NCBI GenBank assembly: GCA_902537215.1
Contig: CACBAM010000002.1
Coordinates: forward strand, 1 to 64,000
Direction of reading: 5' to 3'
DNA length: 64,000 nt
From: an uncultured Alphaproteobacteria bacterium
GTDB taxonomy: Bacteria > Pseudomonadota > Alphaproteobacteria > Rhodobacterales > Rhodobacteraceae
The position numbers and the translations under genes were made by a program. Every line of letters begins with the position of its first letter. Position 1 is the first letter of the stretch. Below are positions 40,713-60,845 of this stretch, in pieces. The notes below the pieces were generated by a model. The model did not search any database. It saw only the letters and a list, made by a program, of their open reading frames with translations, and was not told the DNA's origin.

Positions 40713-42263
40713 TTAAAACTCCTGATTAAGGGAGTCAGTGGCGGGAATTTGCGACTCTCTCAGAGCAATAAATTCCAATAACTCATCATTGATTGCTTCA
40801 TTCATTTTTGGTTCTTCATAATCTGCCAAAAGAGATTTTGCGTGCTTAAGCGCTCTTTCAGTAATCTCTGTTGAGCCTTCGGCTTGCCATTGCTCAATAG
40901 AGTTATTATCAAAAAGCTCAGGCATAAAGAAAGCTCGTTGAAAGTTTTCTAGCGTGTGGGGATGACCGAGATAGTGACCGCCGGGTCCAATGTCATTGAC
41001 TGCTTTTAGGCCCTCATCAAAGTCGTCCCAATTAATGCCTTGAGCCATTCGATATGCCATCGCGCATTGCTCTGCATCAACTATAAACTTAGCTGTACTA
41101 CAGTGCATACCAGCCTCATTCCATCCAGCTGAATGCCAAATATAATTTGCACCAGACATCATGACAGCCATCAGTGTTGTTGCACTCTCATAACCTGCTT
41201 GCGCATCAAAAGTCTTTGCGCCTCCTAATGTATTTGATGTTCTCCACGGTACTTTATAATAACGCGCCAGTTGACCAATCATAAAATTCATTAAACTGAT
41301 CTCGGGTGTTCCTGCCATCGGAGCTCCTGACTTCATTGATACTGTAGAAAGATAATGACCATAAATTGCAGGTGCACCCTTTTGAATAACTTGTGTATAC
41401 GCCAGAGCCGATAACGCCTCAGCATTAAGTTGTGCAACTGTTGGAGCTACCGATGCCGGGGTGTTTGCTCCTCCTAAAACGAAAGGAGAGCATAATACAG
41501 GTTGGTTTCTTTTGCAAAAAGCTCTCATTGCGCCAAGCATCGTTTCATCCCAAACTAAAGGAGAGTTTCCGTTGCAGTTACCTGTAACTACTGGATGACT
41601 GTCAATAAAACCAGGGCCAAACAAAATATCGCACATTTTAATCACATCTTCTGCATTTTTGGGGCTTGTTGTCATCCCCATAAATGTTTTGTCGGAGTAT
41701 CTCATGGATGAGTATGTGATACGTAAATGACGTTGGCTTATAGGATGATCGTAGGGCTCTACGATATGATGTGCACTTGAGTGCATAGAGGGAAGCATGT
41801 GTGATAATTTATGAAAATTGGCTAAATCTTCTAAGGTTGGATTACGACGTTTGTCTTCTAGGTCTCTTAGGTATGGAGCTCCCGTCATCGGTACAAACAT
41901 GCAGTAGCTTTTTCCAAAATCAAGATTATTTTTTGGGTTTCTTGCATGATATGTAAATGTCTCTGGTATAGATTTAATAAGATCTTTCACGAGGAATCTA
42001 TCCAGAAAAACAGTTTCTCCAACAATCTTTGCCCCAATGGATCTCCAATCTTGAAGAGCAATTTTATCTCGAAAATGAATGCCAGTATTTTCCAAAATAT
42101 CCATAGAGGCGTTATCAATTCGTTTGATTTGATCTCGATTTAATGGTTCTGTGAGCGGAAGGCTGTGCTGTAATGCTGGCAGCATTGTAAAACTTCTTGT
42201 CTGGCTCTTTAGCCGTCTAGAGCTACGCCCCTTTCGTATTGTTCCTACAGCTTGCACCGTCAT
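40713..42263 (-). CDS. Trimethylamine-methyltransferase (MttB) family protein, non-pyrrolysine
   Basis: This 516-residue TIM-barrel protein is of the MttB superfamily; members without pyrrolysine demethylate glycine betaine, proline betaine or carnitine to a corrinoid protein. Family marks include ENTGIHFRD, VPMTGAPYLRDLEDKRRNPTLEDL, and TGNCNGNSPLVWDETMLGAM. No in-frame amber codon is present, so pyrrolysine is absent. It starts in an ATGA overlap with ALDH. No corrinoid protein (MtgC-like) or MtgA partner lies in the window, so they would have to be elsewhere, or the protein does something different. Confidence 0.87.
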   Translation of the reverse strand: MTVQAVGTIRKGRSSRRLKSQTRSFTMLPALQHSLPLTEPLNRDQIKRIDNASMDILENTGIHFRDKIALQDWRSIGAKIVGETVFLDRFLVKDLIKSIPETFTYHARNPKNNLDFGKSYCMFVPMTGAPYLRDLEDKRRNPTLEDLANFHKLSHMLPSMHSSAHHIVEPYDHPISQRHLRITYSSMRYSDKTFMGMTTSPKNAEDVIKMCDILFGPGFIDSHPVVTGNCNGNSPLVWDETMLGAMRAFCKRNQPVLCSPFVLGGANTPASVAPTVAQLNAEALSALAYTQVIQKGAPAIYGHYLSTVSMKSGAPMAGTPEISLMNFMIGQLARYYKVPWRTSNTLGGAKTFDAQAGYESATTLMAVMMSGANYIWHSAGWNEAGMHCSTAKFIVDAEQCAMAYRMAQGINWDDFDEGLKAVNDIGPGGHYLGHPHTLENFQRAFFMPELFDNNSIEQWQAEGSTEITERALKHAKSLLADYEEPKMNEAINDELLEFIALRESQIPATDSLNQEF

Positions 42264-57963: not shown

Positions 57964-58596
57964 GTGTCCGATAACAAAGGATTAGTAAATTATAGCCATC
58001 TTAATTTAGATGATCTGCAAAATGATAATAAGTTGAAGGAAGTCTATAAGGAGTGGGCACCTGATTATGATTTTGACAATGATAATAAGCTTGGCACCGT
58101 TTCACAGCCAACAAGCGTGAAACTCCTTTTGAGTAAAGTAAAAGACAAAGCGGTTAAAATTATAGACATTGGGTGTGGTACCGGTTTGGTAGGGAAGCAT
58201 TTAAAGTCAGAGGGATTTAATAATTTTGATGGTCTCGATATTTCTGATGAAATGCTACAAATAGCCCGTCAAAGGGGATATCAAAAATTATATTCAGGCA
58301 GTTTAAATAAGAAGTTACCAATAAATGATAATGCGTATGATTGTGTGATGTGTGTGGGTGTCTTTACACATGATCACGTATCTTCTGCTGGATTTAATGA
58401 GCTTTGTAGAATTGCTAAGCCCGGAGGATATGTATGCTTTACTATCAATGAGGAAGTATATCGAAAGTATGGATTTGACGAAACTATAAAAGAATTTGAA
58501 ATCAATAGTAAGTGGAGTGTTCTCTCATTGTTTAAAGACGATTATATGAAGTTAGAAAACGTAAAAGGATACTATTGCTTGGTTTCCATAAAATAG
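57964..58596 (+). CDS. SAM-dependent methyltransferase
   Basis: This 210-residue protein is of the class I methyltransferase fold. Motif I is IIDIGCGTGLVGKHL, followed by FDGLDISDEMLQIARQRGY and the acidic VMCVGVFTHDHVSSAGFNEL. YKEWAPDYDFD precedes it, as in UbiE-type or cyclase-like methyltransferases. The start is GTG 57964, with TAGGG upstream. It is convergent with the DMSP lyase, 16 bases away. Substrate is unknown; a role in methylated-sulfur metabolism is speculative. Confidence 0.88.
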   Translation: MSDNKGLVNYSHLNLDDLQNDNKLKEVYKEWAPDYDFDNDNKLGTVSQPTSVKLLLSKVKDKAVKIIDIGCGTGLVGKHLKSEGFNNFDGLDISDEMLQIARQRGYQKLYSGSLNKKLPINDNAYDCVMCVGVFTHDHVSSAGFNELCRIAKPGGYVCFTINEEVYRKYGFDETIKEFEINSKWSVLSLFKDDYMKLENVKGYYCLVSIK

Positions 58597-58612: not shown

Positions 58613-59182
58613 TTAATTGTCCATTTTAGCTAAATGATCTAGGCCTTTCCCACGCCAGAGGATAAAAGCAAGTAAAGGGTCCTCTAATGTCTCCATTGCA
58701 TGGCTCTCCCAACTTTTATGAAATTGTGTCTCATTGGCTTTTAATACTTTTGTCTCCTTTTTTGTCTTAAAGAGTGCTTTACCCCCTAAAACGCAATAAA
58801 TCTCCTCCGCCTCATGACTGTGCCATTTATAATTTAAATTTTCTCCCCAAAAGGCAATAAACCCTCTTATTGATTCGCTATAAAAATGACCATTAGGCCC
58901 AATCAGTTCAAGGTAGCAATGACGATTTGCAAAATCTTTCCCCACCTCAGATAAAGAATAGGTTTGGCGCCACTGTGCTTCATCGGCATGCTTTTTAATA
59001 GCTTCTACCATAGGGAAGGTTTCATCTGAGCTTTTAAAGTCCAACGTTCTTACTAATGAAGAGCCGGAAGTTGTTTTTGGATCAAGATTTTTATTTCTTA
59101 AACTTATATTTAAATCGCAAAAATTCCGAAGCTCTTGATTATTTTGGCAAATTATTTGGGCGTATTGAAGTATCGTTTGCAT
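58613..59182 (-). CDS. dddQ: DMSP lyase, DddQ-type cupin
   Basis: This 189-residue cupin matches DMSP lyases that cleave dimethylsulfoniopropionate to DMS and acrylate with a divalent metal. HSHEAEEIY at 121-129 places His123, Glu127 and Tyr129, and His161 lies in the second cupin motif. These have the same spacing as the DddQ residues H125, E129, Y131 and H163 known from the family (two residues less each). NYKWHSHEAEE and a C-terminal FILWRGKGL agree. It is divergent from the haloalkane dehalogenase. DddL and DddW are related, so the exact subclass is less certain than the activity class. No acrylate or transport genes are beside it. Confidence 0.82.
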   Translation of the reverse strand: MQTILQYAQIICQNNQELRNFCDLNISLRNKNLDPKTTSGSSLVRTLDFKSSDETFPMVEAIKKHADEAQWRQTYSLSEVGKDFANRHCYLELIGPNGHFYSESIRGFIAFWGENLNYKWHSHEAEEIYCVLGGKALFKTKKETKVLKANETQFHKSWESHAMETLEDPLLAFILWRGKGLDHLAKMDN

Positions 59183-59281
59183 TTCAAGATTTTGTTTTGA
59201 AAATCGTAAATTTGTAATAATTCTAAAATTCAGAAAATAATACCGCTATCTGGTAATAAATAGAAGTTGTATAAACTTTTT

Positions 59282-59309
59282 AAACTTAATACTCTTGAGT
59301 ATTAAGTTT
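59282..59309. promoter_or_regulatory. Perfect 13-bp inverted repeat upstream of haloalkane dehalogenase
   Basis: AAACTTAATACTC (59282-59294) and its reverse complement (59297-59309) are separated by TT, ending 19 bases before ATG 59329. The stem overlaps a possible -10 (TACTCT, 59290-59295) set 17 bases from TTGTAT (59267-59272). This suits a repressor operator of the TetR or MarR kind. As RNA it is a strong hairpin just before the ribosome site GGAG, so translational control is also possible. Confidence 0.6.
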
Positions 59310-59328
59310 GAACTTGGAGCTTTTTTAA

Positions 59329-60216
59329 ATGAGTTTAAGTACTAAACCATATGCAGATAAGAAAAAAATAACCATTAATAACAAGACAATGTCTTATATT
59401 GATGAAGGGGAGGGTGACGCTATCATATTTCAACATGGTAATCCTACGTCCTCCTATCTTTGGAGAAATATTATGCCCTATCTTGAGGGACAAGGACGCT
59501 TAATTGCTTGCGACTTAATTGGTATGGGTGACTCTGAAAAAATTACAAATTCTGGATCGAAAAGTTATAGCTATTTTGAACATCGTGAATTTCTATTTGA
59601 ATTACTCGAAAAATTAAATATCGGAAAGAATGTTGTATTTGTTATTCATGATTGGGGATCAGTACTAGGATTTGATTGGTGTTTTCAAAACCAGGACAGA
59701 ACTCAAGGCATTGTATATATGGAAGGGATCGTAAAGCCTGTAACATGGGAGGAATGGCCTGAAGGAGGTAAAAAGGTTTTTCAGGGATTTAGGTCTGAGG
59801 CAGGAGAAAGCATGGTGCTTGATAAAAATATTTTTGTTGAAAGGGTTTTGCCCTCGTCCATTATACGAGAGCTGTCAGAGCAAGAGATGAATGAGTATCG
59901 ACGCCCATTTTTGAATGAGGGAGAAGACAGAAGACCAACTTTGAGTTGGCCTCGACAAATCCCTATAGATGGAGAACCAGAGGACGTAACGCAGGTCGTA
60001 CAAGAATACAGTTCTTGGCTATCTCAAAGCAAAACTCCGAAGCTGTTCATCAATGCAGAGCCTGGCTTTTTCTCAGAAAACCAAAGGGAATTTTGTAGGT
60101 CTTTACCTGCTCAGAAAGAAGTTACGGTTAAAGGGCTTCATTTTTTACAGGAAGACTCACCAAAGGAAATAGGTGAGGCAATTTTAGATTTTGTTTCTCA
60201 GTTGAGAACAAATTAA
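59329..60216 (+). CDS. dhaA: Haloalkane dehalogenase (HLD-II, DhaA-like)
   Basis: This 295-residue alpha/beta hydrolase carries the full dehalogenase set: Asn38 in [11 protein letters not shown] (halide binding), nucleophile Asp108 and Trp109 in VIHDWGS, Glu132 in YMEGIV and base His271 in LHFLQEDSP. These agree with the DhaA-type group, in which the acid follows strand 6. It would release halide from haloalkanes by hydrolysis, yielding an alcohol. It is followed 23 bases later by an HD-domain gene. The real substrate is not known from sequence. Confidence 0.92.
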
Positions 60217-60239: not shown

Positions 60240-60845
60240 ATGAAAAAGGAAGTTAATAAGGTTAGCTTTACCCAAATGAAATATGGTAATTATGAGGATT
60301 ACCAACTTTTAAAAAAATTAGAAAAGCCTTACTTAAATCTAACTGCTAGTCGAATACTTGATGAGCTTAAAAGACAGGGTGAGTCAACTCTTGAAGGCTA
60401 CCGAATTACGCGGCTTGATCACGGTTTGCAGTCTGCAACAAGGGCTGAGGCAGATGGCGTGGATATTGATTGGATTGTTGGGGCATTATTACACGATATT
60501 GGAGATGGTCTAGCCCCTCAAAATCTCGATAAATTTTCTGCAGAAGTGATCAGACCCTTTGTTCGCTGGGAAGTTACTTGGACAGTGGCACATCATGGCC
60601 TCTTTCAAATGATCTATTATGCCCATCACTACGGATGGGATAAAAATGCAAGAGACAGATATAAAGACCACCCTTGTTTTGATATGTGTTCAAAGTTTTG
60701 TGAAAGATGGGATCAAAAATCTTTCGATCCTAATTATCCCTCAAAGACAATAGAATACTTCGAACCTATGGTTGAAGAAGTTTTTTCTAGAAAGGCATTT
60801 TCTCCGGAAGTAATTAGAGAAAACGAAGCTATTGGATTTAATTAA
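60240..60845 (+). CDS. HD-domain protein of the MIOX/PhnZ-like di-iron oxygenase group
   Basis: This 201-residue HD-domain protein has His61 in RLDHGLQ, the His85-Asp86 pair in LLHDIGDG, His118/119 in TVAHHG, His129/130 in YYAHHYGW and Asp158 in CERWDQK, a set like the metal ligands of myo-inositol oxygenase and PhnZ. That order (H-HD-H-H-D) fits a mixed-valent di-iron oxygenase better than a phosphohydrolase. A phosphohydrolase remains possible. It follows the dehalogenase on the same strand and may act on its product (inference). Confidence 0.75.
   Translation: MKKEVNKVSFTQMKYGNYEDYQLLKKLEKPYLNLTASRILDELKRQGESTLEGYRITRLDHGLQSATRAEADGVDIDWIVGALLHDIGDGLAPQNLDKFSAEVIRPFVRWEVTWTVAHHGLFQMIYYAHHYGWDKNARDRYKDHPCFDMCSKFCERWDQKSFDPNYPSKTIEYFEPMVEEVFSRKAFSPEVIRENEAIGFN

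Follow-up and report, generated by a model that had tools for sequence, protein, structure and literature searches.

DddQ is a known bacterial enzyme that cleaves DMSP, a sulphur compound of algae, to dimethyl sulphide (DMS) gas and acrylate, and the question raised by the present locus is whether an open reading frame in the window (the whole 64,000-nucleotide stretch of DNA analysed, taken from the 2.1 Mb genome, assembled in 44 contigs and 92% complete, of an uncultured member of the Rhodobacteraceae) encodes a genuine representative of this enzyme. The original prediction had named it a DddQ-like lyase from the spacing of four active-site residues. As judged from sequence, the gene is probably (roughly 87%) a genuine dddQ, the product of which would serve as a second, accessory lyase in addition to DddP, an assignment that is carried by homology and tree position, and for which the active-site residues are weak evidence. 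The relevant features of the locus, with the basis of each, are as follows.

57964–58596, forward strand: SAM-dependent methyltransferase (Pfam Methyltransf_11, synteny)
58613–59182, reverse strand: dddQ, predicted cupin DMSP lyase (PF16867, phmmer, tree, residues)
59183–59328: divergent intergenic region of 146 bp between dddQ and the dehalogenase gene (synteny)
59282–59309: 28-bp palindrome, AAACTTAATACTC-TT-GAGTATTAAGTTT, candidate operator (sequence, genome pattern search)
59329–60216, forward strand: predicted haloalkane dehalogenase, LinB/Rv2579-like, 295 aa (NF002938, PDB 7pw1)
60240–60845, forward strand: HD-domain protein, distantly PhnZ/TmpB-like (weak profile and PDB matches, synteny)

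The reading frame at 58613–59182 starts with ATG and specifies a protein of 189 amino acids with a single cupin domain, which scored 72 bits (E = 6.3e-20) against the Pfam DMSP_lyase profile (PF16867), above the curated cut-off of 27 bits. A phmmer search of the whole PDB returned DddQ (4la2/5jso) as the top match at 1.4e-50, homology that extends over the full length of a characterised DddQ and lies well below a threshold of 1e-30; the alignment with this Ruegeria lacuscaerulensis enzyme was free of gaps over residues 2–188 (187 residues) at 43.3% identity. Subsequent matches were the DMSP lyases 4b29 (3e-36) and 5cu1 (2e-20), followed by a sharp fall to the first non-lyase, an oxalate-decarboxylase-like cupin with an E-value of 0.024. 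A profile search across the DddQ, DddL, DddK and DddW families had been proposed as a check on the original prediction; family membership was upheld by the PF16867 score, and the PDB matches were to DddQ-type lyases only, in a comparison set that held no labelled DddL, DddK or DddW sequences. None of the NCBIfam models makes a call for the protein, a result counted against the assignment, and the AlphaFold model generated with the five closest sequences (pLDDT 36.6) was too poor for use.

A phylogeny, the other computational check proposed, placed the protein with DddQ. In a tree of 50 proteins, the window protein grouped with its nine orthologues from the genus in one clade supported at 100/100, and R. 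lacuscaerulensis DddQ branched next to this clade as its sister (98/97). Both lie within a larger clade (98/94) of 17 rows, consisting of the ten genus proteins, R. lacuscaerulensis DddQ, 4b29, 5cu1 and four others, so that all three PDB DMSP lyase (DddQ) anchors fall inside it, and the window protein groups with known DddQ apart from the other PF16867 cupins. The protein resembles R. lacuscaerulensis DddQ (PDB 4la2, 4la3 and 5jso) in size, in its essential residues and in its gap-free length, but belongs to a separate clade and has a different genome setting, with dehalogenase and methyltransferase genes as neighbours. Relative to 4b29, which the PDB names only 'DMSP lyase' and which we take to be Roseovarius nubinhibens DddQ, the identity was 43% over the C-terminal 131 residues with the same active-site residues, whereas the N-terminal 50 residues were unaligned and 4b29 lay farther out in the tree. 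The protein 5cu1, likewise named only 'DMSP lyase' in the PDB and presumably Ruegeria pomeroyi DddQ, was 40% identical over the cupin core but fell in a different DddQ branch (100/99), together with proteins from two other genera of the window's GTDB family.

Full-length dddQ orthologues, with identities of 62–90%, were detected in nine of 21 congeners. Very divergent PF16867 cupins were also recorded in congeners lacking dddQ, two in one genome (L035, G021:C2:17169; L048, G021:C2:71635) and two in another (L045 and L049, G008). The plasmid collection yielded two PF16867 proteins, both remote.

Both the reading frame and the four residue positions of the original prediction proved exact: His123, Glu127, Tyr129 and His161 correspond to DddQ H125, E129, Y131 and H163, each offset by +2. 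Tyr118 and His121 are present too and align with two catalytic residues of R. lacuscaerulensis DddQ, Tyr120 and His123; the window protein consequently has counterparts of all six residues (Tyr120, His123, His125, Glu129, Tyr131 and His163) reported as essential in DddQ (PMC4437653). The cupin His-X-His, Glu and distal His are all accounted for, the predicted metal ligands H121, H123, E127 and H161 aligning with DddQ H123, H125, E129 and H163, and every essential residue was conserved in the alignment of all ten orthologues, the window protein included. When seven positions (Tyr118, His121, His123, Glu127, Tyr129, His161 and Trp176) were checked in an alignment of 52 proteins, all seven were retained in 48, and the full set was present in 31 of the 35 PF16867 proteins that lie outside the DddQ clade. 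The motif 1 tyrosines, Y118 and Y129, are similarly non-specific, both being found in most remote PF16867 proteins. The residue set was consequently rejected as sufficient proof of DddQ: the residues would assign the protein to the DMSP-lyase cupin family without telling which member it is. Many PF16867 proteins share them without proven DMSP activity, so the family may span several functions, a point that counts against the assignment, and textbook active-site residues are insufficient on their own for identifying DddQ. The identity originally proposed is thus retained on the ungapped full-length homology and the tree, and the residue spacing on which it had been based is set aside as non-specific among PF16867 cupins.

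In all ten dddQ-bearing genomes, the gene is flanked by the convergent methyltransferase gene and the divergent dehalogenase gene, and in nine of the ten the HD-domain gene adjoins the dehalogenase gene; the outer flanks vary, with enoyl-CoA hydratase and purine nucleoside phosphorylase genes on one side in some genomes and transporter genes in others. The product of 59329–60216 is, on its profile score (NF002938, 414.7 bits against a cut-off of 241) and its match to PDB 7pw1 (6e-138), clearly predicted to be a LinB/Rv2579-like haloalkane dehalogenase. The HD-domain protein scored 36.5 bits with TIGR03276, far under the cut-off of 214.6, and matched PDB TmpB/PhnZ at 5.6e-5. Within the genus (22 genomes), exactly the ten with dddQ carry a dehalogenase orthologue (77–97% identity), which is absent from the 12 congeners without dddQ; the methyltransferase gene also occurs in two genomes that lack this dddQ. 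Much of the co-occurrence of dddQ and dehalogenase may be explained by the shared ancestry of the ten genomes and, since the genomes are moreover mostly incomplete, it constitutes a lead and no proof of a functional link. A literature search returned no paper on dddQ together with a haloalkane dehalogenase, none on AEGEAN-169 with DMSP or ddd genes, and none on dddQ in single amplified genomes.

The spacer between the two divergent genes was best conserved, among orthologous spacers, in a block on the dehalogenase side, and it contains the palindrome, which comprises 13-base arms separated by a 2-base gap. The site is conserved in relatives, where it is palindromic in part only. Allowing up to three mismatches, its single other match in the genome lay in a broken copy of the dddQ/dehalogenase cassette, and the reversed control gave none; a role as a genome-wide regulon site was rejected, there being two sites only, both in such cassettes. 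With some 20 bases between the palindrome and the dehalogenase start, as against some 100 to dddQ, the candidate operator would more likely control the dehalogenase than dddQ. The wider proposal that dddQ and the dehalogenase gene make up a co-regulated cassette, with a shared control region and palindromic operator, joint gain and loss, movement and recombination, is regarded as rather unlikely.

The broken copy is a second divergent dddQ/dehalogenase pair located outside the window, 12 kb to the right of dddQ (G000:C2:70718–71968; L025:10719–11969). Its dddQ is cut to about 65 codons, its dehalogenase gene is frameshifted near the start, and its surroundings look like surface-polysaccharide genes. 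The window dddQ was nearest to that of congener G014 (90%, dS 0.25) and the window dehalogenase to that of congener G003 (97%, dS 0.22); conversely, the broken dddQ and its spacer resembled G003, while the second dehalogenase resembled G014 (91%). These crosswise affinities suggest that the two cassette copies have recombined, with reciprocal exchange of alleles.

Genes of DMSP metabolism were located elsewhere in the genome. DddP, an M24-type DMSP lyase that catalyses the same reaction as DddQ with an unrelated fold, is encoded at C7:56715–58028 (NF043017 equivalog, 617.7 bits against a cut-off of 600; PDB 4b28/4rzy, 7e-149); it is widespread in the genus, being kept in 16 of 22 genomes and 86–99% identical in most of them, as against 62–90% for dddQ. 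Two DmdA-type demethylases scored 499.9 and 470.8 bits with NF009133 (cut-off 410) and matched PDB 3tfh at 1e-94 and 1e-102, and ProV- and ProW-like genes together with one for an OpuAC-type binding protein, plausibly a DMSP or betaine importer, lie about 12 kb from dddP. With DddP, the two demethylases and this betaine-type ABC transporter encoded in the genome, dddQ would be an accessory second lyase, and the tie to DMSP cycling that had been drawn from the lyase gene is strengthened by these genes.

The absence of dddT, acuI and prpE from the neighbourhood had been noted originally, correctly so for the immediate flanks, in which no prpE adjoins dddQ. Across the 22 genomes of the genus, no BCCT transporter of the DddT type was matched by PF02028 and the best TIGR02823 score for AcuI was 110 bits against a cut-off of 297, both counted against the assignment; with NF051456, the best AcuI candidate reached 84 against a cut-off of 440, to be read with the 92% completeness of this genome.

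Two further loci were recorded. A gene for Xsc (sulfoacetaldehyde acetyltransferase; L103:18004–19779, on G000:C7; 889 against 676 bits) lies about 2 kb downstream of dddP and suggests that taurine-type sulphonates are used. Within the window, 40713–42263 encodes an MttB-family methyltransferase (PF06253, 687 bits; trimethylamine equivalog, 293 against a cut-off of 525) and adjoins aldehyde dehydrogenase, SDR and DAO genes, perhaps as a betaine-type demethylation cluster.

Three other explanations of the window gene were weighed. That it is a decaying or non-functional remnant is very improbable indeed: the second cassette copy in the same genome is broken, and dddQ evolves faster than its neighbours (mostly dN/dS 0.03–0.16), which also counts against the DddQ assignment, but the window copy is intact and of full length, its pairwise dN/dS against the nine orthologues (0.12–0.23) indicates that dddQ is under purifying selection, and the same holds for the nine orthologues. 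It is improbable, to a lesser degree, that the protein, though a DMSP-lyase-like cupin, no longer acts as a lyase and has taken on another role, possibly tied to its dehalogenase and methyltransferase neighbours. These neighbours, instead of DMSP genes, are its constant partners and remote family members share its residues; against this, the tree places the protein beside proven DddQ, the essential residues are intact in all ten orthologues, and DMSP pathway genes are present in the genome.

The remaining alternative, possible if somewhat unlikely, retains the DddQ fold and assigns the protein a different main substrate in this lineage, either DMSOP or some other sulphonium or sulphoxonium propionate substituted at the beta position, DMSP being cleaved only weakly. 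DMSOP is also a substrate of DddQ enzymes (PMC10686828); DddQ, DddK and DddU are 2- to 83-fold more efficient with DMSOP than with DMSP, and the preference differs among DddQ enzymes (PMC10686828). DddQ, moreover, has a Km for DMSP of tens of mM (PMC5395565), and a conserved DddP is already encoded in the genome. No sequence feature was found, however, that separates the two activities, and all tested DddQ genes gave DMS from DMSP (PMC10686828). We infer the activity of the window protein on DMSP or DMSOP from its sequence relationships, and the window DddQ may, by analogy, cleave DMSOP as well.

With the gene read as a genuine dddQ, a mechanism can be proposed from the characterised DddQ enzymes. 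The single-domain cupin would bind a divalent metal through His121, His123, Glu127 and His161, and either Tyr129 or Tyr118 would take the alpha proton of DMSP, whereupon beta elimination would free DMS and acrylate. DMSP would probably enter through the ProXWV/ChoXWV-type ABC transporter, and the dddQ product would act alongside DddP; the host, a marine alphaproteobacterium with a small genome, can probably also demethylate DMSP via DmdA.

Understanding of DMSP lyases is unchanged by these findings, and a role for the gene in marine sulphur cycling is credible. Were the co-regulated pairing with the dehalogenase gene real, a DMSP lyase would be expressed together with an enzyme for halogenated alkanes, acting for example on methyl halides or organohalides encountered in the same algal blooms. 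Uncultured marine alphaproteobacteria of a streamlined lineage would join the carriers of DddQ, with DddP and DmdA encoded alongside, and in this lineage dddQ appears to be an accessory, exchangeable gene adjoining a haloalkane dehalogenase.
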